Assembly (NCBI RefSeq): GCF_025685415.1
Contig: NZ_JAGSYB010000001.1
Location: forward strand, 1,116,001-1,180,000
Direction of reading: 5' to 3'
Length of the DNA stretch: 64,000 bases
Origin: Terriglobus aquaticus
Lineage (GTDB): Bacteria; Acidobacteriota; Terriglobia; Terriglobales; Acidobacteriaceae
Within the stretch, counting starts at the first letter, position 1, and each line of letters opens with the position of its first letter. The notes under the pieces were generated by a model that made no database searches, was not told where the DNA came from, and saw nothing but the letters and a program-made list of their open reading frames with translations. The position numbers and the translations under genes are program-made. Of this stretch, positions 3,013 to 42,898 are shown piece by piece.

Positions 3013-6000
3013 GGGCTACTTCTCCGGAAGTGGTACTGTGTGCAGATTCTTTCTTGCCCTTCGCGGCGCCATGCAGCATGGCGAACACGGCCGGCACAAA
3101 GGCAAGGGTGGCCACGGTTGCGCAAAGCAGGCCACCAATCACGGCGCGTCCCAGTGGCGCATTCTGCTCGCCGCCTTCGCCCAGGCCCATGGCCATCGGA
3201 ACCATGCCGATGATCATGGCGAGTGCCGTCATGCATACGGGGCGGAACCGGGTCGCGCCGGCTTCGATCGCCGAAAGAACCGCGTCTCCGTGCTCGTCCA
3301 GGCGGATCTTGGCAAAGGAAACAACCAGGATGCTGTTTGCGGTGGCGACGCCCATACACATGATGGCGCCCATGAGCGCGGGCACGCTAAGCGTCGTGTG
3401 AGTGACAAATAGGAACAGAACGATGCCGGCCAACGCCGCTGGCAAAGCCGTGATGATGATGAAAGGGTCAAGCCACGACTGGAAGTTGACGACGATCAGC
3501 ATGTAGACCAGCACGATCGCGAAGACCAGTCCACCCAGCAGCGCGGTGTATGACGTCTTCATCGTCTCGACTTGTCCGCGTAGATCCACAAAGGTGCCGC
3601 GCGGCAAAGCCTTGCGATGCCGATCGACAATGCGCTGCACGTCGTTCGCAACAGCACCCAGGTCGCGGCCCTGCACCGAGGCATAAATATCAACGACACG
3701 CCGGATGTTGTAGTGGTTTACCACGGCGGCCTCGTGCCCGCGCGAGATGCTGGTCAGGTCGCCCACGATCTCCGGCGTCGTCCGCTGCTGCGAGGTTACG
3801 GAGTTGACCGGAATGTTCTGGATGTCCTGCAGCGACGTCATGTTGTACTGCGGGTTTTGCGCGACCAGGTTGTAGTTCACGCCGTTCTTCCAGTTCAGAA
3901 AGAACATGGGCGTGAGCTGGAACGAACTGGAGAGGCTGTTCAACATGCTCTGCGAGATGTCGCGGGTGGTATAGCCACCCTGCTCAGCCTTGGTGCGCTC
4001 GATGTTCACGTCGAGCGTTGGGTAGTCCAGCGGTTGCTGAATGCGTACGTCGACCAGGCCGGGCACGTTGCGCAGTTCCGAAAGCATGCTTTGCGCCTGC
4101 GCGGTAGCGCCTTCCATGTCCGAGCTTTGGAACTGCACGTCGATCGGAGCCGGCAGGCCGAAGTTCAAGATCTGCGTCGTGATATCCGCGGGCAGGAAGT
4201 AGAACGTGGTGCCAGGAAACTGCCGGGGCAGCTTCTGCCGCAGCGCCGCAACGTAGTCGGCGGTGGGGTGATGCTTTTCCGTAAGCCCCACGAAAATGTC
4301 GCCGTCGCCCGCACCCACGATTCCGTTGGTCAAGTGCATGGTGTTCATGGCGCTGTAGGGCATGCCCAGGTTGTCCAGCACACTTTCAACTTCGCCAGGG
4401 GCCACAGTCTCCCGGATAGATTGCTCCACCTGGTCCGCCAGCCGCGCCGTCTCTTCAATGCGGGTGCCAGTCCTGGCGCGAATGTGCAGCGTGAACTGTC
4501 CCGAGTCGGAGCTGGGAAAGAAGTCCTGGCCGAGGAAGGGCACCAGCAGCATCGCCAACACGCATCCGCCCAGAAAGACGGGAAGGAATATGCGCCGCGA
4601 CAGCACCAGCCGAGTCAACAGGAATTCGTAGCCGGAGCGAAGACGTTCGAACCCGCGTTCGAACCCTCGCTGGAAGTTGACCAGGGGATTGCGCGAGGGA
4701 GCCGTGTTCTTGTGGCGCAACAGGTACATGGCCAGCGTGGGCACCAGGGTTCGCGACAGGATGTACGACGCGATCATGGCAAAGATGACCGCCTCGGCCA
4801 GCGGCGCGAACAGATAGCGCGCAACACCACTCAGAAAGAACATCGGTAGAAACACGATGCAGATACAGAGCGTGGAAACGAGCGCAGGTACAGCGATCTG
4901 TGCCGCGCCGTCGAGAATCGCATCCCGCAGTTCGTAGCCCTCTTCCAGGAAGCGCTCAATGTTCTCCAGCGTCACCGTTGCGTCGTCGACCAGGATGCCG
5001 ACCGCCAGCGCAAGTCCGCCCAGCGTCATCGTGTTGATCGTCTCGCCAAGGAAGCTCAGCACAATCACCGACGTGAGGATCGACAGCGGAATGGAGACCG
5101 CGATGATCAGCGTGGATCGCCACGATCCGAGGAAGAGGAGAATCATCAACCCGGTCAGCGAGGCCGCGATCACCGCCTCACGCACCACGCCAGAGATCGC
5201 TCCGCGCACGAAGACGCTCTGGTCGTTCAGCGGAGTCAGCTTCAGGCCCGCCGGGGCAATCTGCAGAGCTCGCGGCAATAACTTGTTGATGCCGGTAACA
5301 ACATCCAGCGTGGACGCTGTGCCGGCCTTCAGCACAGACAAGAGAACGCCGCGATGGCCATCCTGGCGCACGATGTTCGTCTGGTACGCAGCGCCGCTGC
5401 TTACCGTGGCCACGTCGCGCACATAGACCATGGCGCCGTTCACCTGCTTGATCGGCATCAAGCTGATTTCGTCGATCGTGTGCGGCGCAGCATTGCTGCG
5501 AACGTCGTACTCCAGCGGTCCAATCTTCGCGGTGCCGCTGGGCATCACCACGTTCTGTGCGTTCATGGCGTTCAGCAGGTCACCCGGTGAGACACCCTTG
5601 GCCTGCATTTTCGCCTGATCCATGCTCACGGTGATCTGCGGCGATTTGCCGCCGTACGCCTGCGGCAGCACCGCGCCGGCGACCGTGACCAATTGCGGCC
5701 GCACGGTGTTCTGCGCAATGTCGTTCAGTTGCTGCTCGTTCAGGTTGTTGCCTGACACACCGATCTGCAGAATCGGAACGCTGCTGGCACTGAAGTTGAT
5801 GATCTCCGGTGGGAGGATGCCCGGTGGCAACTGACGCAGCAGATACTGCGAGGCCGCCGTCACCTGTGCGTTCGCCGTGTCCAGGCTGGCGCCCGGCTGC
5901 AGGTAGATCTTGACCACCGAGGTGCCGTTGTAGCTAGTCGACTCGGTGTGCTGGATGTTGTCGACCAGCGTGGTCAGCGCCTTCTCGTAGGGCGTCGTCA

Positions 6001-7321: not shown

Positions 7322-10300
7322 CTATCGGGAAACGAAGCTGGTCTGCCCCGATCCGATCTCGGCCGTCGCTCCCGGCAGCGGCGATCCATCCTGCAGGTAG
7401 TGGCCCTCGGGTGCTGCCGGCAAACGCACCGTTGCCGTGGTATTTGCGGGCAGTCGCACCGTCATGGCAAAGCTTCCATCCGCGCTTCGCGTCCAGTCCG
7501 TCACCACGGTGCCGTATGGCGAATCGAACTCAGTGCGGGCATGGGCCAGCGCCGCGTCGATCACCGGCGCGATCACCAGGTGATGGTAGCCGGGGTGCTG
7601 TTCGTCCGTTGCTATGCCGGACACGCGGCTGTACACCCACGCCATCACCGAGCCAAACGCGTAGTGGTTGTAGGAGTTCATGCCCGGATCGCCCGTGTCC
7701 CCATTCCAGCGCTCCCACCAGGTCGTCGCTCCCTTGCGAACCATGTATCCCCACGAGGGATAGGTATCGCTGAGCAGCAGTTGATAGGCCACGTCGCCGC
7801 GGCCCTCGCGATCGAGCACGGTAAGCAGGAACGGCGTTCCGAGGAAGCCGGTCGTCAGATGATTGCCGTGGCTCTGGATGTCTGCCACGAGACGCCGGAC
7901 CATTGCGGCGCGCTCCGCAGGTTCCGCCATGCCCGTATACAGCGAAAGCACGTACGCGGTCTGAGTATTGCCCGTAACTCCACCTTCTTTGCCGATGTAA
8001 GCGGAACGATAGCTGGCGCGCAGCCTGCGATACAGCGCGGCATACCGATCGGCTTCATCAGTCCGTTGCGTCGCGCGCGCCATCGCCTCCATTTGCCTTG
8101 TGATTAAGGCCCAGTAGGCCGTAGCCACCAGATCCGACGGCGTATGTGGATCGGGTGCAAGCCAATCTGCGTAATTGGGTCCCAGGTCCTTCCGGCGCAG
8201 ACCGTCCGGGTTGGATCGCTCGATGAATTGCATCCATCGCTCCATCGCGTCCCAGTTACGGTCGATCACGCTGCGGTCGCCATACTGCTGCCAAGTCGCG
8301 TACGGAACCAGAACGCCCGCGTCGCCCCACCCAGGCGCGCCGGTTCCTTCCGGCCCTACCCGCAGCAGGTTGGGCGAAATGTTCATGAAAACTCCGCGCG
8401 CATCCTGCGCATCGGTCACATCGTCCATGAACTTACGTGAGAACGCGTCGATGTCGTAGTTGTACGATCCCGTTCGCCAAAACACTCCGGCATCGCCCAT
8501 CCAGCCCATGCGCTCGTCGCGTTGCGGGCAGTCTGTGGGTATGGAAACGAAGTTGCCGCGCTGTCCCCACAGGCCAAGCTGAAACATGCCGTTCAGCAGC
8601 GTGCTCGAGCTGCTGAAGCGCATGGAAGGGGACTGCGGCAGGCTGTTCTCCACCTCTCCAACGATGGTGTCTAGCCCGGCGTCCGCGGCAAGTCCATCAA
8701 CCTGCACATAGCGGAAGCCGTGGAAGGTGAAGACCGGCGTCCACTCTTCCCATCCGCCGCCGCGCAGGGTGTACTCGTCCGTTGCATCGGCGTTGCGTAG
8801 ATTCTCGGTGTACACCGTGCCATCGGGCTGCAGGCGCTCCGCAAAGCGCAGGCGAATGGTGCGGCCGCGTTCGCCGCGAACCCGCAGGCGCACCACTCCC
8901 ACCATGTTCTGGCCCATGTCGAAGACCTTGGCAGAGGTTTGCGCGCCGGCAACCTGCACGTCCTTCACCGCGACCGGCTTCAGCGATTGCTCCACGTGCG
9001 GAGGCAGGTCGGCTTCGGCAGTAATTGCAATCTGCTGCGGAGCATCGCCAACCTGAACAGGTTGCCAACCGGCGGTGTTCGTGAACGGCTGCCGATTCCA
9101 GCCATTCTGCGCAAGCCGCGCATCGTAACTTTCCCCGCCATAGATTTCCGAAGAGTCGGTGGCATCGCGGGCTCCCATCCAGCTTGCGTCGGTAACAACA
9201 GTCTGCCGGTGACCATCGCGCAACGTCAGTACGAGTTCGGCTCGGACCATATCCGGGCCGGGATAGTCGCGCAAGCCAGCCCACAGCAGCGGGCTGCTGT
9301 GCCATCCCCCACCCAACTGGATGCCGAACGCATTTCTGCCGGAGTGGACCAGGTCGGTGACATCGTAGGTCTGGTAGAGCACACGTTTGTGGAAGTCGGT
9401 GAAGCCTGGCGTGAGCACATCATGGCCAACGGCAACACCGTTCAGCGACGCGCGGTAGGCACCCAGCGCGGTGATGTAAAGCCGCGCGGAGAGCACACCT
9501 GCAGGCGCGCTGAACCCTTTCCGCAACAGCGAGACCTCCGTCGAAATTCGGTCGGGAGCTGCAATCATCTTTCGACGGTCAGAACCCGTGCTGACCTGCA
9601 AAGAGCTGAGCGGACCGACAACATCGGCGGCCTGCCACGCGGCACCCGAGCCAGAGCGCGCCTGCCACGCTCCATCTGTCACCACGGTTCGTGTGCGCTT
9701 GTTCGCCTCCCGCAGGAAGATCGCCGCCGCGAAGGCGTTCGCATTGGTTGCAGCATCGTGAATGCCACGAGCGGTAGTGTGAACGACGATCTCGTTATCG
9801 CCGCTCGCACCGGCACCGAAGCGCAAAGCACGCAGAATGTTTTCGCGGTCGAACGAACTCCAATCCTGCTTGTGGCCGGTCGTCTGGCCGTTGACCTCTG
9901 CGGTGAAGGTGCCGCCCGAAAGGCAATGGAGCACCGCGGATTCGGGCTCGCTGTCCAGATGAAGGGTGAGCCGAAAGTCCGCCTGCTGATGATCCGCAAC
10001 GGCTCGCGGATCGCCTTGGGGCAGCCACAGCCACCGGATATTCTGAATGGCTTGTCGTTCGACAGGATCGTCGTATCGAATCCAGCGGGCCTGCCACGCG
10101 CTACCCATCAGCCCTGTTTCCCACCAGGCGTGTTCGGCGGAGACCTGTTCCACGTGCGCCTGGTCCCAGGTATGGACACGCCAGTAATATCGTGTGCGCG
10201 GTTGCAGCGGCTTGCCACGGTAGCCGATGCCCAGAGACTCATCGGAAGCGACCTGTCCGCTGTCCCACAGGTCGGCTTTGCCAGCCGCAAGAGCTGCCGC

Positions 10301-32847: not shown

Positions 32848-34212
32848 TCAGCTCTCTTCTTCCGGCAACGAAATCTCGTATTTCGCAAGCTTGTACGTCA
32901 TATCGCTCTTGGAGAGACCGAGCCGACGCGCTGCTTCCGCTTTACGCCCGTGCGTCCGTCCTAACATCTGCACGATCGCACTCTTCTCCCAATCGGCAAG
33001 TGCCTTTCTCAAATCCATCTCTTCCGGCACCGCTGGGTTCGGCGTCGCTGCCGAGGCAGTCGGCAGGTTCACAGAAAAGATCACAGGATCGGCGGACAGG
33101 ATGCACGCACGTTCCAACACGTTCCGCAGCTCACGAACGTTTCCGGGATACCGGTATTCCTGAAGTTCCTTCAAGGCTTTGGCGTGCAGCGTGCGAACAG
33201 GCATTTTCAGGTCGCTGGCGATTTGTTGCAGAAGATGCTTTGCAAGAACAGGGATATCTTCCGCTCGCTCGCGAAGGGGTGGCACCTCCACCGGCACGAC
33301 AGCCAGCCGGTAATAGAGGTCCTGGCGAAAGCGCCCGGCCTCAACCTCTCGCAACAGGTTGCGGTGTGTAGCGAGCAAAACACGAACGTCTACGTCACGA
33401 GACACGGAAGAGCCCAGACGGGTGATCTTGCCTTCAGCCAGCGCGCGCAGCAGCTTTGCCTGCGCGTTTGGTGACATTTCACCGACCTCGTCCAGAAACA
33501 GGGTGCCCTGGTGTGCGGTCTCGAACAGACCGTGTCGCAGCCGGTCTGCACCGGTAAAGGCGCCCTTCTCGTGGCCGAACAGTTCGCTCTCCAGCAAGGT
33601 ATCGGGCAGCGCGGCACAGTTGACCGTGACCAGTGGTTTGGTCGCACGCGCACTCAGCTTGTGGATCGCGCGGGCGACAAGCTCTTTCCCGGTTCCCGTT
33701 TCACCGGTGATAAGCACCGTGGCATCAGTCCGTCCCACGCGCCGAATCAGTTCACGGAGTGCGGCGATCCTGGTCCCGGTTCCGTAGATCTCCCCATCCC
33801 CTTCGAGTGCCTCGACCGTGTTCCGCAGCAGGAGATTTTCCCGGCGAAGCTGTGCGTGCTGTGCAGCTCGAGCTATGACTGCTCTCAGGTTGTCGGCAGC
33901 AAAGGGTTTGGTCAGGAAGTCGAAGGCGCCTTTGCGCATCGCTTCCACGGCCAGCTCCACCGTTCCAAAGGCGGTAAGCAGAACCACCGTTCCCGTGGAG
34001 CCTGCTGACCCCGGCATTTCCAACAGCCGGCTTCCCTCACCATCCGGCAGCTTCTGGTCCGTCAGGATCACATCGAAGTCCTGCTGTTCCAGAGTCTGCT
34101 GAGCCTCTCGAAGAGATTCGACCGAGTGGATCGTATGCCCATCCTGCCGCAGGTGCAGGCCGATCAAGCGACGCATGTTCGGTTCGTCTTCAATAACCAG
34201 CACTCGCGCCAC
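32848..34212 (-). CDS. Sigma54-dependent NtrC-family response regulator
   Basis: 454 aa with three domains. Receiver at 1-120 (VLVIEDEPNMRR, phosphorylation Asp in DVILTDQKLPDGEG, Lys in FLTKPF). AAA+ sigma54-activation domain at about 140-375, with Walker A GETGTGKE, the sigma54-contact loop GAFTGA (ELFGHEKGAFTGAD) and LFLDEVGEMS as Walker B. Fis-type HTH at about 405-450 (GRKAEAARRLGLSKSDMTYK). It starts 4 bp after the histidine kinase stop. The two probably activate the divergent metal-efflux operon, whose upstream region has a sigma54 promoter and dyads. Confidence 0.95.
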   Translation of the reverse strand: MARVLVIEDEPNMRRLIGLHLRQDGHTIHSVESLREAQQTLEQQDFDVILTDQKLPDGEGSRLLEMPGSAGSTGTVVLLTAFGTVELAVEAMRKGAFDFLTKPFAADNLRAVIARAAQHAQLRRENLLLRNTVEALEGDGEIYGTGTRIAALRELIRRVGRTDATVLITGETGTGKELVARAIHKLSARATKPLVTVNCAALPDTLLESELFGHEKGAFTGADRLRHGLFETAHQGTLFLDEVGEMSPNAQAKLLRALAEGKITRLGSSVSRDVDVRVLLATHRNLLREVEAGRFRQDLYYRLAVVPVEVPPLRERAEDIPVLAKHLLQQIASDLKMPVRTLHAKALKELQEYRYPGNVRELRNVLERACILSADPVIFSVNLPTASAATPNPAVPEEMDLRKALADWEKSAIVQMLGRTHGRKAEAARRLGLSKSDMTYKLAKYEISLPEEES

Positions 34213-34216
34213 CCGC

Positions 34217-35689
34217 TCAGCCCTCCACCGCAGATGATTTCAGTTGACCGGCAAACGCTGGCAACTTGAGTTGGAAGCACACCCTGCCCTGTTCGTTCCT
34301 TGCAAGGGTAAGAGTGCCCTCATGAGCCTCGGCGATTCTGCGCGCGATCGAAAGACCAAGCCCCGTTCCTCCGCTCTTCGCGGTAAAGAAGGGCTCGAAG
34401 ATTTGCGGTACGGCATACGCCGGGATACATTCGCCTTCGTTCTCGACCGCAATACAGACCATCTCTGCCTCGCTCGCGCAACGAACTACGATTTCTCCTC
34501 CGGCCGGTGTCGCGTCTATGGCGTTCCGTACTAAATTCAGCAAAGCCTGCTGCAGCCGGTCCTGGTTGCCGAACAACAGCGGGGCATGGGTGACAACGGG
34601 CCGGATAGAAAGCTCCTTCCGGAGTGCCTGTGCCTTCGCGATCGAACACACGTAGCCGATCAATGGCTCAGCTTCCACCTCGCGGCAGGCAAAGCGATCC
34701 GGTTGCGCATAGGAGAGAAACTCGGTCGTCAGTTTCTCCAAACGCTGCGCTTCCGCCAGCGCAATGCGTGACATCTCGTCGCGGTCTTCCTCGGAGAGCG
34801 CAACAGAGCCAGCCGCCTCCATCGCGCTCGAGATGATCGCCACCGGATTTCTGATTTCATGCGCTACCGCGCTGGCCAGTCTGCCGACCGCTGCCAGCTT
34901 CTCTTCCTCGACCAGCCGGGCGCGGGTGGTCTCCAGGTCTTCCATGCGAGCGCGCAGCTCCACGTCTCGCCTTCGCAGCAGGTCTAGTAGCAGCCACACC
35001 AAGGTGCCGACGGTATACAGCAACAATGCCAGTGTCGCTGTCTCCAACAGCTCGCCTAACTGAAAAGGCGGTCGAAAGTGAGCGGCGTAGCTCACCCAAA
35101 GCAAACCGGTCAGCGAAGCCACGGTGGCAGCCATCAGCGTGATGGTGAGCGAAAAGTACAACGCCGCTTCCAGCACAGGCAGGATCAGCAGACCGAAGTA
35201 GTGCGTGTGAAACTGCCGCGTCGCGGCCGCAAGCAGGAATGGTGCCACCACTCCGAGCGTGATCGAAGCACACACCAGCATCCGAGTCCCGCTGCGAGAT
35301 CGCGTCCACTCTTTGCGAGACAGCGCAAGCTCGGCCAAGCGAAGCGAGACAGCAATTGCCGCAACCAGGAACATCGTGCGAGGCGTCGCGAAATGGAAGT
35401 ACGAGAAGCCCAGCTCGACCAGAACGAACACCAGAAGCGCGACCGCGTACACAGCTGCGATCGCCGTTCTCGGAAACAGGGCGCTTGGGAATCGAAACTG
35501 ACTCAGGTCGTTCGTAAGCCGCTCCCCTTTCCGTGTGAAGACTGCAATCGCCTTGCCAATTTCGCCGGCCCAAACTCGGCGTCTGCCCCAGACTTGCGCC
35601 TGCCGGTGTTCGAATGATCGTATCGAACCGTACGAACTTTCGAACGACTCCTCGCCTTCTACCGTCGGCCAAGCTGGGCAATCTAGCAA
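34217..35689 (-). CDS. Membrane sensor histidine kinase (PilS/NtrB-like)
   Basis: Up to 490 aa. About six tightly packed transmembrane helices (residues about 75-235) with no sizeable periplasmic loop, a short coiled linker, HisKA with AVAHEIRNP, the N box NLVRNAIDA, and GTGLGLSIA. The G1 box reads ENEGECIP, with Asn in place of the usual Asp, as in some metal-sensor kinases. The start is unclear: the frame opens with TTG 35689 and has no ATG before helix 1. The first 60 residues look untranslated, and overlap the proposed enhancer dyads. It pairs with the downstream NtrC-type regulator and probably senses metal or envelope state through the membrane. Confidence 0.9.
   Translation of the reverse strand: MLDCPAWPTVEGEESFESSYGSIRSFEHRQAQVWGRRRVWAGEIGKAIAVFTRKGERLTNDLSQFRFPSALFPRTAIAAVYAVALLVFVLVELGFSYFHFATPRTMFLVAAIAVSLRLAELALSRKEWTRSRSGTRMLVCASITLGVVAPFLLAAATRQFHTHYFGLLILPVLEAALYFSLTITLMAATVASLTGLLWVSYAAHFRPPFQLGELLETATLALLLYTVGTLVWLLLDLLRRRDVELRARMEDLETTRARLVEEEKLAAVGRLASAVAHEIRNPVAIISSAMEAAGSVALSEEDRDEMSRIALAEAQRLEKLTTEFLSYAQPDRFACREVEAEPLIGYVCSIAKAQALRKELSIRPVVTHAPLLFGNQDRLQQALLNLVRNAIDATPAGGEIVVRCASEAEMVCIAVENEGECIPAYAVPQIFEPFFTAKSGGTGLGLSIARRIAEAHEGTLTLARNEQGRVCFQLKLPAFAGQLKSSAVEG
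35608..35646. promoter_or_regulatory. Two inverted repeats, candidate enhancer sites for the NtrC-type regulator
   Basis: Adjacent dyads: GTTCGA-N9-TCGAAC (35608-35628) and CGTACGAA-CT-TTCGAACG (35629-35646, 7 of 8 paired). Both share CGAA/TTCG half-sites. They lie 97-135 bp upstream of the predicted sigma54 start site, the usual place for activator binding in this family. Confidence 0.5.
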
Positions 35690-35715
35690 AAACGGCTACA
35701 TCTCGTTTCAACCTT

Positions 35716-35732
35716 TTGGCAAAGTGCATGCA
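35716..35732 (+). promoter_or_regulatory. Sigma54 promoter of the metal-efflux operon
   Basis: TTTGGCAAAGTGCATGCAC contains the invariant GG (35718-35719) and GC (35730-35731) with exactly ten bases between them; the left half TTGGCA is canonical. The predicted start near 35743 leaves a leader of about 30 nt before the chosen ATG at 35773. A sigma54 activator gene is 1.5 kb away. Confidence 0.6.
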
Positions 35733-35772
35733 CTACGCGACTATGGTCCGCTGCGGACCTGCACCATCGGAG

Positions 35773-37062
35773 ATGCCCATCTCGACTGAACAGACCAATA
35801 CCGTTCCTGCCACGCGCTTTCCTCTACGGAGGAGGACGACGGTCCTGGCCGTCCTCGCATCGGCGCTGGCATGGTCCGCTCAGGCGCAGAGCCCTCCCAC
35901 AGCTCCCACTCTGAGTCTCCACGATGCGATCGTCCGCTCACAGGCGAGCCCTCAGGCACACATCAGCCAGGATCAGGTAGACCTCACGCGTGGAGCGGTG
36001 ATACAGGCCGGTCTGGCGCCGAACCCCAGACTCTATCTCCAGTCCGAGGATCTGCGTCCGTGGGCGAGCAACTTCGACTTCCCTAACTCGACGGAGGACT
36101 ACGGCTACGTCGGGCAGCTCTTTGAGTTGGGCGGCAAACGCAGCCGCCGCGTCGACTTCGCGCGCGCCAACGAACGGCAGGCTGAAGCCAACCGCACGCT
36201 GGCCAACCAGCAGATTGCAGGCCGCGTCGCGGCAGCGTATTGGTCCGCTGTCGCGAACGCCGGCATCGAGCAATTGCTGGAGAGAGACCTTTCCGCCGTC
36301 GACGAGATCGCCCGCTACAACCAGGAGCGGGTGAACTCTGGAGCAGGGCGAGGTGTCGACCTGATCCGCGTACAGATCGAACGCGACAGGCTGCGGTTGG
36401 CGCTTGCTACGGCCAAACGTGAAGTGGTCCAAAGCCGGATTGAACTGTTTCGCCAGGTGGGACAAGCGCCCGACGACGCCGTCCGCTTGTCAGACAAGCT
36501 GGACTCCAGCCTCCCGGCACAAACCCAGACACTGGCAACCGTCCTGGCCACGCGCGCAGACCTGGTCGCCGCCCGAGAGGCTGTGCAAGCCGCGGAAGCC
36601 GATGTTCGGCTGCAGCGAGCCGTGGGGGTTCCCGACCTCGATCTACTCGCCGGCTACAAGCGCAATGCAGCGGACAACACGCTCTACAGCAGCCTGCAGC
36701 TGCCGCTCCCTTTTCGAAACCGGAACCAAGGTGAGATTGCCCGCGCACAGGCGTCCGTGCATCTCGCCCAGGACCGCCTCAGGCAGTTGGAACTTTCCGC
36801 TCAGGCCGACATCACTGCCGCACAGCAAGCGTTCCAGCAACAACAGGAGATCGTCCGTGACATCCTTCCCGACATGCGCGCGCGCGCAGCGCAGAACCTG
36901 GCCATCATGGACGACGCCTACCGCTCCGGTGGAGTCGATCTGCTGCGATTTCTCGACGCAGAGCGCACGGCATTCGACGTGGAAGTAAGCGCTTTGCGCA
37001 CACTTGCGGAGTATCAGCAGGCTGGGCTTCGGCTGCAACTTGCCTATGGGATGCAACCATGA
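35773..37062 (+). CDS. Outer-membrane efflux protein, CzcC/CusC-like (TolC family)
   Basis: 429 aa from ATG 35773, which follows CGGAG and lies just inside a predicted sigma54 transcript. Signal peptide with TTVLAVLASALAWSAQAQ. The mature protein has two outer-membrane-efflux repeats with long Gln/Ala-rich helices (EARE..VQAAEADVRLQRA) and the family element PDLDLLAGYKRN followed by LQLPLPFRNRNQGEIA, typical of CzcC-like metal channels. First gene of a five-gene operon; its stop overlaps the adaptor start (ATGA at 37059). Confidence 0.92.
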   Translation: MPISTEQTNTVPATRFPLRRRTTVLAVLASALAWSAQAQSPPTAPTLSLHDAIVRSQASPQAHISQDQVDLTRGAVIQAGLAPNPRLYLQSEDLRPWASNFDFPNSTEDYGYVGQLFELGGKRSRRVDFARANERQAEANRTLANQQIAGRVAAAYWSAVANAGIEQLLERDLSAVDEIARYNQERVNSGAGRGVDLIRVQIERDRLRLALATAKREVVQSRIELFRQVGQAPDDAVRLSDKLDSSLPAQTQTLATVLATRADLVAAREAVQAAEADVRLQRAVGVPDLDLLAGYKRNAADNTLYSSLQLPLPFRNRNQGEIARAQASVHLAQDRLRQLELSAQADITAAQQAFQQQQEIVRDILPDMRARAAQNLAIMDDAYRSGGVDLLRFLDAERTAFDVEVSALRTLAEYQQAGLRLQLAYGMQP

Positions 37063-38324
37063 CGCCATCGAAACGAGTTCTCGGTTTTCTTCTACTCACC
37101 TGCTGTCTCCACGGCTGCTCCAAGAAGCAGGCGGGCGATAAGCCAGGCGGTTCGTCTGGAGACGCATCACAGAGCGCCGCCACGTCCCAGGACCAGCCAG
37201 ACAAGAGCGCCAAAGGCGGCGCGCAGGCGAACGACATCGTCAAGATTCCGGCGCAGGACCAGCAGCGTGCCGGCATTCAGATCGCCTCCGTCCTCGTTCA
37301 GCGCATGCCGCGCACCCTCGCCGTGGCGGGCCAGGTAGTCATGGACGAGCAGCATACGTCCCACCTCGGCACTATCGCAGATGGCCGTATCACCTCCGTC
37401 ACTGTTCTTCCGGGCGCGGTGGTTCGGCGCGGTCAGGTTCTTGGAACTCTTCACAGCCACATGGTTCACGAAACGGTGGGATCCCTGGTTCAGGCCTACG
37501 CGGCAGAAAACCGGCAGCGCGGCGCCGTCGCATTCGCGAAGCAGGCGCAGGATCGCTATCACCATCTCTACTCCATCCAGGCGGCCTCCCTGGAGGAATC
37601 GCAACGTGCCGACCAGCAGTTGCAGGAGGCGCAGCAGATGCTGGTTGACGCGCAGGCAAACGTACACATGGAGCGGGAACACCTGTCGGAGTTGCTCCAG
37701 GTCTCGCCAGAGTCACTCAACCCAAACAATCTGTACGACCGTGAACTCATCCCCATCCGCTCGCCCATGGATGGCGTCGTGATCGCGCGCAACATCAGCG
37801 TCGGCCAAGTCGTTGACACCGGCTTTGTCGCCTTCGACATAACAAACCTGAGCACGGTCTGGGTGACGGCCGCGGTGAACCAGCCGGACATTGGCATGAT
37901 GCATGCCGGTGCCGCAACGGATGTCGTGACCGCCGGCTTCCCCGATCAGGTGTTCCATGGTCGCGTTGGATTGGTCGGCGACACACTTTCGCCCGACACA
38001 CGGACGATCCCCGTTCGCATCGTCGTTCCCAACCCTGGCACCCGCCTCAAGCCGGGCATGTTCGTCTCTGCGCACATTGCGGAACCGCAAACGCGCGACG
38101 CCGTCTTTGTTCCCCAGGACGCGCTGCAAAACATCAATGGCATGCCTGTCGTCTTCGTCACAAACGACGGCACGACGTTCCAGGCCCGTACCGTCAACGT
38201 GGGCACGCGTTCCATGGGCAAAGCGGAGATCCTGGAAGGCCTGAAGCCAGGAGACCGCATTGTGGTCAACGGCGCCTTCATGGTGAAGTCCGAGATGCTC
38301 AAGGGCACCATGGGAGACGGCTAG
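37059..38324 (+). CDS. Metal-efflux RND periplasmic adaptor, CzcB/CusB-like lipoprotein
   Basis: 421 aa membrane-fusion protein. Lipoprotein signal with lipobox LHGC (Cys near residue 21), then a charged low-complexity linker. Barrel-sandwich halves (GRITSVTVLPGAVVRRGQVL and SPMDGVVIARNISVGQVVD) flank a helical hairpin, with a C-terminal beta-barrel and membrane-proximal domain (LKPGMFVSAHIAEP, LEGLKPGDRIVVNGAF). No Met- or His-rich metal site is visible at the N-terminus. It is coupled to the channel gene and is followed 1 bp later by the pump gene. Confidence 0.92.
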   Translation: MTPSKRVLGFLLLTCCLHGCSKKQAGDKPGGSSGDASQSAATSQDQPDKSAKGGAQANDIVKIPAQDQQRAGIQIASVLVQRMPRTLAVAGQVVMDEQHTSHLGTIADGRITSVTVLPGAVVRRGQVLGTLHSHMVHETVGSLVQAYAAENRQRGAVAFAKQAQDRYHHLYSIQAASLEESQRADQQLQEAQQMLVDAQANVHMEREHLSELLQVSPESLNPNNLYDRELIPIRSPMDGVVIARNISVGQVVDTGFVAFDITNLSTVWVTAAVNQPDIGMMHAGAATDVVTAGFPDQVFHGRVGLVGDTLSPDTRTIPVRIVVPNPGTRLKPGMFVSAHIAEPQTRDAVFVPQDALQNINGMPVVFVTNDGTTFQARTVNVGTRSMGKAEILEGLKPGDRIVVNGAFMVKSEMLKGTMGDG

Positions 38325-38325
38325 C

Positions 38326-41300
38326 ATGCGCAGGCTTGTCGACTTCTTCCTGTCCAATCGCTGGCTCGTCGCCGCGCTGCTGCTCGTCCTCATCATCGGT
38401 GGCATCACCGTCATGCTGCACCTGCCGCTGGAGGCCTTCCCGGACCTCACTAACAACCAAGTCGTCGTCACGGTTCAGTGCCCGGGCATGTCGCCGGTCG
38501 AGGTCGAGCAGCTTGTTACGTATCCCATCGAGACCTCGATGATGGGCATGCCCAAGCTTCAGATGGTTCGCTCCACCTCCAAGCTCGACCTCTCCATGGT
38601 GACAGTCATCTTCGACGACTCCATGGACAAGTACCTCGTTCGGCAACTCGTCGCCGAGCGCATCAACCAGGTGCAGAGCCGCATCCCGGCAGGCCTGCAG
38701 CCGCAGATGAATCCCATGTCCACTGCGTTCGGAGAGGTGTACCAATACACCGTTGCTGCTCCGAACATGTCGCTGATGCAGATCAAGACTCTGCATGACT
38801 GGGTCATCCGCTACGCCCTGCTAACGATCCCGGGTGTGAGTGAGATCAACTCCTGGGGCGGAGAAACAAAGCAATACACGGCCGAGGTAGACCCTGAGAA
38901 CCTGCGCCGCTTCAATCTCACACTGCACGATGTAGTCACGGCGGTTACCAACAACAACGCCAACTTTGGCGGCAGCTACATCGAGCACGCCGAGCAACAG
39001 TACACTGTGCGCGGTCTGGGGCGCGCTCAGAGCATCGACGACCTGGGCAACATCGTGGTCTCGACCACGAACGGCGTACCCGTGCTGCTCAAGCAGGTCG
39101 CCTCGATTCAGACCGAGCCTCTTCCCAGACACGGCGCGGTCATGCGCAACGGTCAGGGCGAGACGGTCTCCGGCATGGTCATCATCCTGCGTGGCGAGAA
39201 CGGCCAGAAGATCATCAAGGAGATCAAAGCTAAGATCGCCAGCTTGAAACTGCCGAACGGTGCGAAGATCATCCCGTTCTACGACCAGTCCGACGTCATC
39301 GATGCGACCACCGCTACAGTGCGGCGCAACCTGATTGAGGCCGCCGTTCTGGTCATTGTCATTCTTCTCATCTTCCTAGGCGACTGGCGAGCCGCTCTGG
39401 TGGTCGCGTTCACCATTCCCCTCTCCTTGCTCTTCGGATTCCTCGGCATGGACCTGTTCGGGATTTCGGTCAACCTCATGAGCCTTGGCGCGATCGACTT
39501 CGGCACCATCGTCGACGGCTCGGTCGTGATGACCGAAAACTGTATGCACCGGCTGGAGAATGGCGGCGCGGGCAAGCCGTTGATCTATGTCGTTCGGGAA
39601 GCGGCGCAGGAAGTGGCTCGGCCGGTAATCTTCGGCGTTCTCATCATCATCGCCGTCTACCTGCCAGTCCTCACCTTGCAGAGCCTGGAAGGCCGCATGT
39701 TCCGCCCCATGGCAGTCACCGTGGTCTCGGCCCTGGCCGGTTCCCTTCTGCTTGCACTGTTCGTAGTTCCCACGTTGTGCACGATCGCTCTTCGACATCG
39801 CGCTCGCAAACTCGCGGAGGCCGAACAGCACAAAGCAAGTTCCAGGCCAGGCTGGTTCGATCGGTTGCGCGCTGCATACGGTCGCTCTCTCACCCGGAGT
39901 GAAGGACATCGAAAGCCGATTCTTATCGTGTCTGTCGTGTTGATTATCCTGGCGCTCGGCTCGCTCAAGTTCATCGGGACGGAGTTCATGCCGACCCTCG
40001 ATGAGGGTTCCATGGTCGTCACGTCCAAACGCCTCCCCGGCATCGCTCTCTCCGAATCCGTAACCATCGGAGACCAGATCGAGAAGACCATCAAGGCCCA
40101 GCCCGGCGTCACCAGCATCGTGACCAAGCTGGGTCGGCCGGACCTGGCCACGGAAGCCATGGGCGAGTACGAATCGGACTCGTACCTCAACTTCACACCG
40201 CAGCTGCAGAACGCGAGCGCAAAAGAAAAGCAGCGGTTTACCGACGATCTTCAGCACTCCCTGGACAAGATCCCTGGAGTCACCTACGAGATCACGCAGC
40301 CCATGCAGATGCGCATGGACGAGACGATCACCGGCACCCGCGGCGATGTGGCGCTCAAGATCTTCGGCGAAGACCTCGACACGCTGGAGCAGATGGCACA
40401 CAGCGCGGAAAAGATCATCTCGGGTGTTCAGGGCGCTTCGGAAACGCAGATGGAGATCATCTCCGGCGCTCAGGAGCTCCAGGTGCGCATCGACCGCCAG
40501 GAGGCCGCGCGTTACGGCGTAAATGTCTCCGACATTCAGGAAGTGATCGAGACCCTCTACGGCTCCAAACAGCTCTCCGAAATGTTGCTGGGCGAGGAGC
40601 GTTTTCCGATCGCCATTCGTCTCCCGGCAGACATCCGCAACGATCCGGAGCGTCTGCGCTCACTCCAGATCAAGACTCCTCAGGGTGAACTCGTCCGGCT
40701 CGATCAGGTGGCTGAAGTGAAGACCGTCGGTGGCCCGATCCTGATCAACCGCGAGCAGGCGCATCGCCGGGCTGTGGTCATGAGCAATGTCAGCGGCCGA
40801 GACCTTGGCAGCTTCGTCAAGGACTGCAAATCCGCGGTCGCCGCAAAGCTGCCACTGCCTCCCGGCTATCGCTTGGAGTGGGGCGGTCAGTATGAAAATC
40901 AGCAGCGAGCGCAGCAGCGCCTCCTCATCGTCTTCCCTGTGTCGCTCCTCATCATCTCCGCCCTGCTATACGCCACGTTTCAGAATGCGAAGCAGATGCT
41001 CCTTATCCTCTGCATCGTTCCGCTCGCGCTTGTAGGAGGCGTCGCAGCGCTTTGGCTTCGCGGGATCAATCTCAATCTCTCCGCGTGCGTGGGCTTCATT
41101 GCACTCTTCGGCATCGCCGTTCTCAACGGCGTAGTTATGGTGAGTCACATCAACTCCCTGCGCAAAGACGGTAAGGAGATGGAAGAAGCGGTCCACAGCG
41201 GTGCATCCGATCGGCTTCGCCCCGTCCTCATCACCGCGCTTGTCGCAAGTCTTGGCTTTGTGCCCATGGCGATCTCGACGTCACGAGGCGCCGAGATCGA

Positions 41301-41427
41301 ACGCCCGCTTGCCACCGTTGTCATCGGCGGCCTCATTACGGCCACTGCCCTGACCCTCTACGTTCTGCCCCTGCTTTACCCCTTGTTCAGCAAGAACGCC
41401 ATTGCAGAAGCGGAGTCTCACGCATAA
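38326..41427 (+). CDS. Heavy-metal efflux RND pump, CzcA/HME family
   Basis: 1033 aa inner-membrane proton/metal antiporter, preceded by GGGAGA. TM4 reads IDFGTIVDGSVVMTEN, with the Asp-Asp-Glu pattern of CzcA-type pumps for divalent cations, not the Met-based pattern of Cu/Ag pumps (CusA has AMVDAA here). The two halves, with FIGTEFMPTLDEGSMVVTSK starting the second, are normal for HME proteins. The likely substrate is Zn, Co, Cd or Ni; this is inferred from TM4 only. Probably controlled by the adjacent two-component system through sigma54. Confidence 0.93.
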   Translation: MRRLVDFFLSNRWLVAALLLVLIIGGITVMLHLPLEAFPDLTNNQVVVTVQCPGMSPVEVEQLVTYPIETSMMGMPKLQMVRSTSKLDLSMVTVIFDDSMDKYLVRQLVAERINQVQSRIPAGLQPQMNPMSTAFGEVYQYTVAAPNMSLMQIKTLHDWVIRYALLTIPGVSEINSWGGETKQYTAEVDPENLRRFNLTLHDVVTAVTNNNANFGGSYIEHAEQQYTVRGLGRAQSIDDLGNIVVSTTNGVPVLLKQVASIQTEPLPRHGAVMRNGQGETVSGMVIILRGENGQKIIKEIKAKIASLKLPNGAKIIPFYDQSDVIDATTATVRRNLIEAAVLVIVILLIFLGDWRAALVVAFTIPLSLLFGFLGMDLFGISVNLMSLGAIDFGTIVDGSVVMTENCMHRLENGGAGKPLIYVVREAAQEVARPVIFGVLIIIAVYLPVLTLQSLEGRMFRPMAVTVVSALAGSLLLALFVVPTLCTIALRHRARKLAEAEQHKASSRPGWFDRLRAAYGRSLTRSEGHRKPILIVSVVLIILALGSLKFIGTEFMPTLDEGSMVVTSKRLPGIALSESVTIGDQIEKTIKAQPGVTSIVTKLGRPDLATEAMGEYESDSYLNFTPQLQNASAKEKQRFTDDLQHSLDKIPGVTYEITQPMQMRMDETITGTRGDVALKIFGEDLDTLEQMAHSAEKIISGVQGASETQMEIISGAQELQVRIDRQEAARYGVNVSDIQEVIETLYGSKQLSEMLLGEERFPIAIRLPADIRNDPERLRSLQIKTPQGELVRLDQVAEVKTVGGPILINREQAHRRAVVMSNVSGRDLGSFVKDCKSAVAAKLPLPPGYRLEWGGQYENQQRAQQRLLIVFPVSLLIISALLYATFQNAKQMLLILCIVPLALVGGVAALWLRGINLNLSACVGFIALFGIAVLNGVVMVSHINSLRKDGKEMEEAVHSGASDRLRPVLITALVASLGFVPMAISTSRGAEIERPLATVVIGGLITATALTLYVLPLLYPLFSKNAIAEAESHA

Positions 41428-41496: not shown

Positions 41497-42093
41497 ATGT
41501 CTTCTGCCGACAACCAGCCCCGCAGGCTCGCTTCCTTCCTCCTCGGGGTAGTAGTCACAATCGTCGTCCTCGTGCTCGGCTTTTTCGCCTACATCCGCTT
41601 CGGCCGTCTACCCGTCGCCACGGCCGATCCGTCGTTCCCCATGGAAGCGCAAATCGTCCATGTGCCACTCGAGGCGCGAATCGCGCGAGAGATGCAATCG
41701 GTACCGTTCCAGGCCGATGCGCAGACTTACCAGGCCGGAGCTCAGATCTACGTGCAGCAATGTGCCAGTTGCCACGGAACTCCAGGACATGATGTTGCCT
41801 TTGCCTCCGGAATGTTTCCCAGAACTCCTCAGCTCTGGAAAAAGCACGCAAACGGGGTCGTCGGCGTAAGTGACGACGAGCCCGGCGAGACATTCTGGAA
41901 GGTAAAGAACGGTATCCGCCTCTCCGGCATGCCCTCGTATCAGAACGTGCTCTCCCCGACTCAGATGTGGCAGGTAACGCTCCTGCTCAAGGACGCCGAC
42001 AAACCGCTGCCGGCAACAGTGCAGGAAACCCTCACCAAGGATCAATCGCCGGCTGCCGCTCCCCCGGCGACGCAAGGACTCAAGCATGACTAA
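41497..42093 (+). CDS. Membrane-anchored monohaem cytochrome c
   Basis: 198 aa. AAGGAG lies 7 bp before the ATG. One N-terminal membrane anchor (residues about 11-33), then a class I cytochrome c domain with the haem site CASCH (about residue 88) and the axial Met in RLSGMPSYQ. The C-terminal tail is Ala/Pro-rich. It lies 70 bp after the metal pump on the same strand and overlaps the next gene, so it appears to be part of the efflux operon. An electron carrier in a metal-efflux operon is unusual; its partner is unknown. Confidence 0.9.
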   Translation: MSSADNQPRRLASFLLGVVVTIVVLVLGFFAYIRFGRLPVATADPSFPMEAQIVHVPLEARIAREMQSVPFQADAQTYQAGAQIYVQQCASCHGTPGHDVAFASGMFPRTPQLWKKHANGVVGVSDDEPGETFWKVKNGIRLSGMPSYQNVLSPTQMWQVTLLLKDADKPLPATVQETLTKDQSPAAAPPATQGLKHD

Positions 42094-42898
42094 GCAATCG
42101 AATCTCGCGCGGCGCACCTTGGCCACGATTTCTGTGTTGGCGTTCGCAGCCACCTCTCCTGCATACGCGCAATCGACTCTCCCGGACGCGCCCTCAGCCC
42201 AGGCCGCTCCCTCTGCGTCACGTTCACATGATCCACAAAACATCGACGACCTCTCTCTCAAAGGCACCCCGAAGCGCATAGTCCTCGACGAGGTAAAGAT
42301 CGTCACCTCACCGGCTCGCCTGCGGTCGCGAGATCTCGTGTGGCTCCTCCCCGTCGCTGGTGCAACCGCAGCAAGCCTTGCCACCGACTCCTACACCATG
42401 CGAAACGTGGTTAGCCGAAACCCGGACTTCAACTCCGCTGCAACCACGAGTTCCGATGTACTTCGAGGTGCATTCATCGGTGTTCCGGTTGTCCTCTTCG
42501 GCGCCGGTGAGTTGACCCACCAGGCAAAGCCTCGCGAGGCGGGCCTGCTTGCTGGCGAAGCCATGGTGAATGCCTACGCCACCAGCGAGGCGATCAAATA
42601 CATCACGCTGCGCGAACGCCCGAACCTCCAGAACGCTCGCGGCCACTTCTTTCAGGGCGACGCCGCCTCCGACCCATCGTTCGTCTCCGGACACAGCATC
42701 GTGGCCTGGTCTTCCGCCGCGGTACTCGCCAGTGAATACTCCAAACCATGGCAGCAGGTAGGCATCTACACGCTGGCCACCGGTGCCAGCCTCACCCGCG
42801 TCCTCGGGCAAAACCACTTCCCTACCGACGCGTTGCTCGGCTCCGTCTCAGGATGGCTCATCGGCAAATACGTCTATCGTTCCCACCACAGACGATAG
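42086..42898 (+). CDS. PAP2-superfamily phosphatase
   Basis: 270 aa with a signal peptide (cleavage near SPAYAQ). The three phosphatase motifs are present: KYITLRERP (K-x6-RP), SFVSGHS (SGH) and TRVLGQNHFPTD (R-x5-H-x3-D). It therefore probably dephosphorylates a lipid such as undecaprenyl diphosphate or phosphatidate on the outer face of the inner membrane. It overlaps the cytochrome gene by 8 nt. Its place at the end of a metal-efflux operon is unexplained. Confidence 0.88.
   Translation: MTKQSNLARRTLATISVLAFAATSPAYAQSTLPDAPSAQAAPSASRSHDPQNIDDLSLKGTPKRIVLDEVKIVTSPARLRSRDLVWLLPVAGATAASLATDSYTMRNVVSRNPDFNSAATTSSDVLRGAFIGVPVVLFGAGELTHQAKPREAGLLAGEAMVNAYATSEAIKYITLRERPNLQNARGHFFQGDAASDPSFVSGHSIVAWSSAAVLASEYSKPWQQVGIYTLATGASLTRVLGQNHFPTDALLGSVSGWLIGKYVYRSHHRR

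Follow-up and report, generated by a model that had tools for sequence, protein, structure and literature searches.

The pump operon and the divergent kinase-regulator genes

The stretch of Terriglobus aquaticus DNA analysed here (the window, 64,000 nucleotides) carries on its plus strand the genes of a CzcCBA-like pump: a CzcC-like outer-membrane factor (OEP; 35773..37062), a CzcB-like periplasmic adaptor recognised by profile matches (37059..38324) and a CzcA/ZneA-like heavy-metal RND transporter (38326..41427). The start of czcC was chosen, and another in-frame ATG lies exactly at 35743. The transporter belongs to the CzcA/CusA heavy-metal RND family, since it matches TIGR00914 with 1100.5 bits against a cut-off of 701.45. 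Its closest solved chain is ZneA (721.6 bits), followed by CusA (approximately 612 bits), and the three methionines of CusA, which we take to be residues 573, 623 and 672, have T, E and E as their counterparts in the window protein in an alignment read by eye; because of these replacements, Cu(I) or Ag(I) would be an unlikely substrate of the pump and a divalent cation a likelier one. The cytochrome c and PAP2 genes that follow czcA (41497..42898, plus strand; profile matches) are possibly co-transcribed with czcCBA, but nothing suggests that they are part of the conserved unit, and they are unmatched in the related loci examined, four of which (L027, L028, L056 and L057) end inside czcA with their contig or stretch.

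Two genes run in the opposite direction. A membrane histidine kinase with a HEIRNP box occupies 34217..35515 of the minus strand (its start is inferred), and an NtrC-type response regulator follows at 32848..34212, also on the minus strand. The class of the regulator is given by its Pfam architecture, a receiver domain (PF00072), an AAA+ domain (PF00158) and a Fis-type HTH (PF02954), as well as by a GAFTGA motif (residue 217), a Walker A motif and an Asp box. The initial annotation had described this divergent pair as a membrane kinase and a GAFTGA-type NtrC regulator, and the domains bear it out. The same genome encodes RpoN, so that both the sigma factor and the GAFTGA activator that a sigma-54 promoter requires are present; the sigma-54 activator domain has eight strong and four weak matches in the genome.

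The kinase is 46–63% identical to 11 orthologues. Its membrane part consists of about five or six hydrophobic segments joined by short loops, in which a Pfam profile search recognised no sensor domain; conserved metal ligands are few in this part, and the His residues of its HTHYFG motif are not invariant among the orthologues. No canonical start codon is found near the inferred start of the gene, and the candidates are an ACG at 35515-35513, with GGGGAG six bases before it, or a GTG at 35440.

Two promoter-like sites and the palindromes between them

Sigma-54 promoters have the consensus GG-N10-GC (TGGCAC-N5-TTGCA-like), and two sites of this form face outwards from the region between the kinase and czcC. 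The site that faces the pump operon, TGGCAAAGTGCATGCA (35717..35732, plus strand), has GG at 35718-35719 and, ten bases further, GC at 35730-35731 (TTGGCA...TGCA in TTTTGGCAAAGTGCATGCACTAC), and its predicted transcription start at approximately 35743 is 30 nt before the czcC ATG at 35773; the motif and the distance are those that the initial annotation had reported. Scored with a matrix based on this consensus, this site reaches 13.6 and ranks fourth among the sigma-54-like sites on both strands of the window. This is only a moderate score taken by itself, the best scores in each of 3000 random 480-bp stretches having a 95th percentile of 11.0 and a 99th of 14.4. A single site of this kind proves little, because loose matches to the consensus are not enriched in the window as a whole (111 against 127 expected from shuffles); its strength lies in its recurrence in related loci and in the existence of a second, stronger site.

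The second site, TGGCAAGGCGATTGCA, faces the kinase and regulator genes (35543..35558, minus strand), with a predicted start at approximately 35532. Its score of 16.7 bits is the best of the 64 kb on either strand. The sites that rank second (35247, minus strand, 14.4) and third (39849, minus strand) fall within the kinase gene and czcA, respectively. The kinase-facing site had gone unmentioned in the initial annotation. If it is the promoter of the kinase, translation must begin downstream of 35532 and not at the TTG at 35689 that the list of open reading frames gives as the start. That TTG was rejected because its frame encloses both the kinase-facing site and the palindromes described below, and also because the extension is not kept: ahead of the anchor, the corresponding frames of L027 and L056 stay open for 23 and 25 codons, compared with 65 codons in the window. 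A sigma-70 promoter within the interval was rejected as well, since no sigma-70-like site was found in 35480-35800.

Between the two promoter-like sites lie two 16-bp palindromes of the type GTTC-N8-GAAC, palindrome A (GTTCGAATGATCGTAT, 35608..35623) and, 22 bp from it, palindrome B (GTACGAACTTTCGAAC, 35630..35645), which are putative activator sites on the grounds of their pattern and conservation. Relative to the predicted pump start they cover -135 to -98, in agreement with the two dyads that had been placed 97-135 bp upstream of that start. The midpoint of the pair is separated from the two predicted starts by approximately 95 bp (kinase) and 116 bp (pump). Activator sites of sigma-54 promoters are usually found some 80–150 bp upstream, and the distances of the putative sites fall within this range.

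The pair in the window scores 13 of 16; among 5000 random 170-bp windows, 67 score at least as high, and a loose measure of the palindrome gives 13 or 14 at three further places in the 64 kb. A pattern fitted to the window pair matches the 4.16-Mb genome once, and a control pattern has no match; since the pair pattern, a narrow one, matches only once, the regulator would apparently have a single target. In a search for single palindromes in ten genomes, unlinked sites appeared in several of them, including two in the genome of the window.

Recurrence in related loci and in weaker relatives

The N-terminal part of the kinase was searched in four overlapping draws: 200 genomes of the family (E ≤ 1e-10), and 397 of the order, 62 of one genus and 396 of the phylum (E ≤ 1e-25). 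Matches at E ≤ 1e-25 define 13 loci in 11 genomes, all of one family, and in all 13 the kinase is adjoined by matches to the regulator, czcC, czcB and czcA. The initial annotation had a full CzcCBA-like pump as the governed target, a proposal with which this constant linkage, as well as the presence of the three pump genes in the window, is consistent. Three loci (the window, L027 and L056) are divergent, and the other ten (L028, L057-L064 and L146) have the co-directional order kinase-regulator-czcCBA. For the window's own genus the order draw lists 17 further genomes (seven of which are also in the family draw), none of them with a match, and the 396 genomes of the phylum draw added no new locus. 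A search of the genome contigs gave at least 80 loci, mostly of distant kinases. The best among the matches listed, L065 (38%), has a regulator but lacks a Czc match over the 13 kb examined. A more distant parallel is found in L066 (Edaphobacter modestus).

The conservation of the -24/-12 bases and of the dyads in orthologous regions had been named in the initial annotation as a way to check its proposal, and both elements are kept. A GG-N10-GC is found before czcC in 13 of 13 kinase-linked loci, window included, and before the kinase in 11 of the 12 testable loci, counts that are partly built in because the sites were picked with a matrix favouring GG and GC. L062 was left out of the kinase-promoter counts, as its contig ends approximately 137 bp before the kinase anchor. 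The kinase-facing sites score at least 11.0 in 8 of 12 loci and at least 13 in 4 of 12; the one testable locus that has no kinase-facing GG-N10-GC is L146, where AC replaces the -12 GC on the kinase side and the palindromes are also lost, the elements on its pump side being kept. On the pump side only the window (13.6) and L027 (13.5) exceed 11.0, and the sites of the other 11 of 13 loci, with scores of 6.5–10.6 that are inside the background range, therefore rest on alignment and not on score; for L057, L058 and L146 the site taken is the second-best scorer, picked for its match to the orthologues. When the czcC upstream regions of nine co-directional loci are aligned, two blocks are kept, the paired palindromes and GTTTGG...TGC (GTCTGG in L060), with little else conserved save an ATGA stretch close to the start codon. 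Outside the motifs, two of the divergent intergenic regions align poorly with each other.

The palindromes were scored in 23 promoter regions, which represent 20 distinct stretches given that divergent loci share one stretch for both promoters. The best pair with sites 18–25 bp apart scores at least 12 of 16 in 22 of the 23 regions (19 of the 20 distinct stretches) and at least 13 in 16 of the 20, as compared with 300 and 67, respectively, of 5000 random 170-bp windows, under a consensus that was written after viewing the same sequences. The spacing of the best pair is 20–22 bp in 20 of the 23 regions, equal to two helical turns, which would fit two dimers bound to one face of the DNA, and the centre of its first site lies between -92 and -142 (in the window, -127 from the pump start and -105 from the kinase start). 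The clearest case is L027, with two perfect sites 21 bp apart. Among the co-directional loci, palindromes are found on the kinase side in 8 of 9 testable cases, L146 being the one without them, and on the czcC side in 8 of 9 by the fixed N8 score, a figure in which the pair of L060 includes one weak partner. The real palindrome of L057 has N9 and fails that score, so that the L057 pair counted among the 23 regions is a chance match; the czcC palindromes of L146, to which inspection by eye gave 13 of 16 with a spacing of 22 bp, stand outside the 23 regions. Because the kinase and czcC of the co-directional loci each carry a promoter-like site and palindromes of their own (with the exception of the kinase side of L146, and with L062 untestable), both halves of the putative circuit appear to have been kept through rearrangement, and selection may have retained both outputs in either gene order.

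As a control, the same features were sought at 20 weaker relatives of the kinase that lie beside regulator genes, taken from the family draw, in a scan that covered the kinase side only, over the 600 bp preceding an anchor placed as far as approximately 100 codons into the kinase gene. No Czc match lies beside the 20 control kinases in the DNA examined, in which the contigs of L036, L040 and L042 are short. Six of the controls share a family of neighbouring genes, which where examined (L033 and L029) encode multihaem cytochromes, another six share neighbours that where examined (L044) encode rubrerythrin and DUF2231 proteins, and the rest have different genes beside them. A sigma-54 score of at least 13 is found in 1 of 20 controls and 4 of 12 pump-linked kinases, and a score of at least 11.0 in 5 of 20 and 8 of 12, respectively, so the promoter score by itself separates the two groups only partly. 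A palindrome pair of at least 12 is present in 2 of the 18 controls scored and in 11 of 11 pump-linked kinase regions (L146, without palindromes, is outside the 11), a distribution in which the palindromes clearly follow the pump-linked subfamily.

Proposed circuit, alternative explanations and known systems

Taken together, these observations make it highly probable that the locus is a dedicated, self-amplifying two-component sigma-54 switch for the Czc/Zne-type pump and for its own kinase and regulator genes. The membrane kinase would respond to a signal that is probably an excess of metal, either at the inner membrane or within it, and would phosphorylate the NtrC-type regulator, as expected from its domains; the regulator would then bind the two conserved palindromes (35608-35645). 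From this one enhancer it would activate sigma-54 polymerase, by ATP-driven opening, at both divergent promoters, with czcCBA as one output (from 35717-35732) and the kinase and regulator genes as the other (from 35558-35543). The pump and its control would thus rise together by positive feedback and would be silent without the signal. These steps are proposed because of the established biology of NtrC-type activators, and each of them is read from the sequence. The circuit so outlined would be bidirectional, and fuller than the one initially described. A further idea, rather speculative and on balance doubtful, is that the non-AUG start of the kinase (ACG in the window and L056, ATC in L027) is a deliberate brake, such that only strong autoactivation from the shared enhancer would yield enough kinase in an autocatalytic, single-target sigma-54 switch.

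The nature of the signal is the point at which another reading has some weight. The sigma-54 circuit could be real and respond to envelope or membrane stress instead of metal, with the pump as one outlet, a view that we consider somewhat unlikely. The features of the kinase itself agree with it, namely the lack of a Pfam sensor domain, the scarcity of conserved metal ligands and the variable His residues of HTHYFG; moreover, ZraSR is viewed as an envelope-stress system by several authors, according to the accessible text of two papers (PMC7657598, PMC4987338). However, the only match of the genome to the palindrome-pair pattern adjoins a heavy-metal RND operon, and in all 13 loci the kinase and regulator genes are linked to czcCBA.

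Two other explanations concern the motifs. It is improbable, in our judgement, that only the pump promoter depends on sigma-54, the kinase being read from another start and the site at 35558-35543 being there by chance. The kinase frame does run open upstream to 35689, the -12 GC facing the kinase is missing in L146, and a site of at least 11.0 also precedes 5 of the 20 control kinases; but the site in question is the best of the 64 kb, 11 of the 12 testable loci have a GG-N10-GC ahead of the kinase (8 of 12 with at least 11.0), and the upstream extension of the frame is not kept in L027 and L056. That all the motifs are fortuitous and the operon uses an ordinary promoter is more improbable still, to the point of being barely credible: shuffled sequence does contain loose consensus matches as often as the window itself, but sequence, spacing and pairing recur over 13 loci in two layouts, and the interval contains no sigma-70-like site. 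A chance origin was rejected on the palindrome scores relative to random windows and to the controls, on the single match in the genome and on the alignment of the czcC upstream regions.

Transcription from a sigma-54 promoter requires ATP hydrolysis by the activator and is absent before it; if the dedicated sigma-54 switch is correct, the locus would therefore be a metal-pump switch that is off by default and has built-in feedback. The GTTC-N8-GAAC pairs and the apparently single-target regulator would open the kinase signal to direct testing, and the circuit suggests a metal reporter module. To our knowledge, Czc pumps are controlled by OmpR-type regulators at ordinary promoters. Among the papers listed in literature searches that covered only a small part of the subscription journals, judged by title and by the opening of the abstract, no description of NtrC/sigma-54 control of a CzcCBA pump was found. 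The main text of a wide survey of sigma-54 (PMC12316311) contains no czc, RND or Acidobacter, and HydH/HydG (ZraR was formerly called HydG; PMC7657598, accessible text) are reported together with many CzcCBA genes in acidobacterial bins, unconnected in the accessible text of that report (PMC5462947). The parts are familiar, but the sigma-54 wiring for such a pump appears to be undescribed.

Among known systems, the likeness to ZraSR/ZraP resides in the membrane kinase, the GAFTGA regulator and the sigma-54 promoters that diverge towards the two-component genes on one side and their target on the other. In Salmonella, zraSR and zraP have divergent sigma-54 promoters under the control of ZraR (PMC4987338), and in E. 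coli an RpoN site has been located in vitro between zraP and zraSR (PMC8743547), as far as the accessible text of each paper goes. The target is different, a full RND pump in the window and the chaperone ZraP in ZraSR. The initial annotation had called the circuit ZraSR-type, which holds for the logic and not for membership: the NCBIfam models of ZraR (379.3 bits against a cut-off of 760) and ZraS (154.8 against 479) fall far below their thresholds and are outscored on this pair by those of AtoC and AtoS, and membership was rejected on these scores and on the lack of an adjacent zraP, the sole match of the genome to the ZraP family (PF13801) being at 2.62 Mb, approximately 1.4 Mb from the window (1.116–1.180 Mb). 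The sensor part also differs, given that ZraS has a periplasmic domain whereas the kinase of the window has short-looped membrane segments. With CzcRS-CzcCBA of Cupriavidus and Pseudomonas aeruginosa the locus shares the two-component control of a CzcCBA pump, but CzcR is of the OmpR type and does not depend on sigma-54, whereas the regulator of the window is of the NtrC type. Finally, the pump itself resembles ZneCAB and CusCBA, as ZneA and then CusA are the best solved relatives of its CzcA, and it departs from CusA at the three methionine positions that read T, E and E.

Start and upstream region of the kinase gene

In all three loci in which the kinase and czcCBA genes are divergent (the window, L027 and L056), ATG, GTG and TTG are absent near the inferred start of the kinase. 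The start region of the window (35440-35515, minus strand) contains an ACG with GGGGAG six bases ahead, that of L056 (about 3184-3205) an ACG preceded by GGGGG, and that of L027 (about 5202-5214) an ATC preceded by AAGGAG; the first canonical codons are found further on in these loci, at or inside the first membrane helix. An ATG lies near the equivalent position in eight of the nine co-directional kinase orthologues, the exception being L062.

The kinase-facing sigma-54-like site of the co-directional locus L146 (genome G416; about 9840-9860, minus strand) has AC in place of the -12 GC, and the palindromes proposed as activator sites are gone from the kinase side of this locus, while its czcC side is still intact. 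It is possible that autoregulation has been lost in this one lineage.

Pump genes and their surroundings

Residues 1-131 of CzcA are 97% identical between the window (38326-38718) and L056 (3-395), which belongs to another genus, compared with 80% for CzcB, 74% for CzcC and 64% for the kinase. The CzcA value may reflect either strong constraint or recent exchange. The kinase-regulator-czcCBA cluster is present in two copies in two genomes, G410 and G233 (L057/L058, L060/L061); the L057 contig stops inside czcA.

About 70 bp after czcA, the window carries genes for a cytochrome c and a PAP2 phosphatase (41497-42898), which overlap and could form part of the czcA transcript. Neither is matched in the related loci that reach beyond czcA.

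Related kinase-regulator pairs

In Edaphobacter modestus (L066), a remoter NtrC-type pair (33%/41% identity) and CzcBA-like genes lie in divergent orientation. The pump is faced there by the sigma-54-like site TGGCCTCTCGATTGCT (5659-5674, minus strand; score 11.4), near which there is no GTTC-N8-GAAC site scoring at least 7. Six genomes of the family carry a paralogous pair of a kinase and an NtrC-type regulator next to a common gene family (L029, L030, L031, L033, L035, L043); the members of this gene family that were examined (L033, L029) proved to be multihaem c-type cytochromes with Cytochrome_C7 and MtrC/MtrF-like domains. Further relatives of the pair (L026, L034, L037, L038, L041, L044) adjoin other gene families, namely rubrerythrin and DUF2231 in the member examined (L044).
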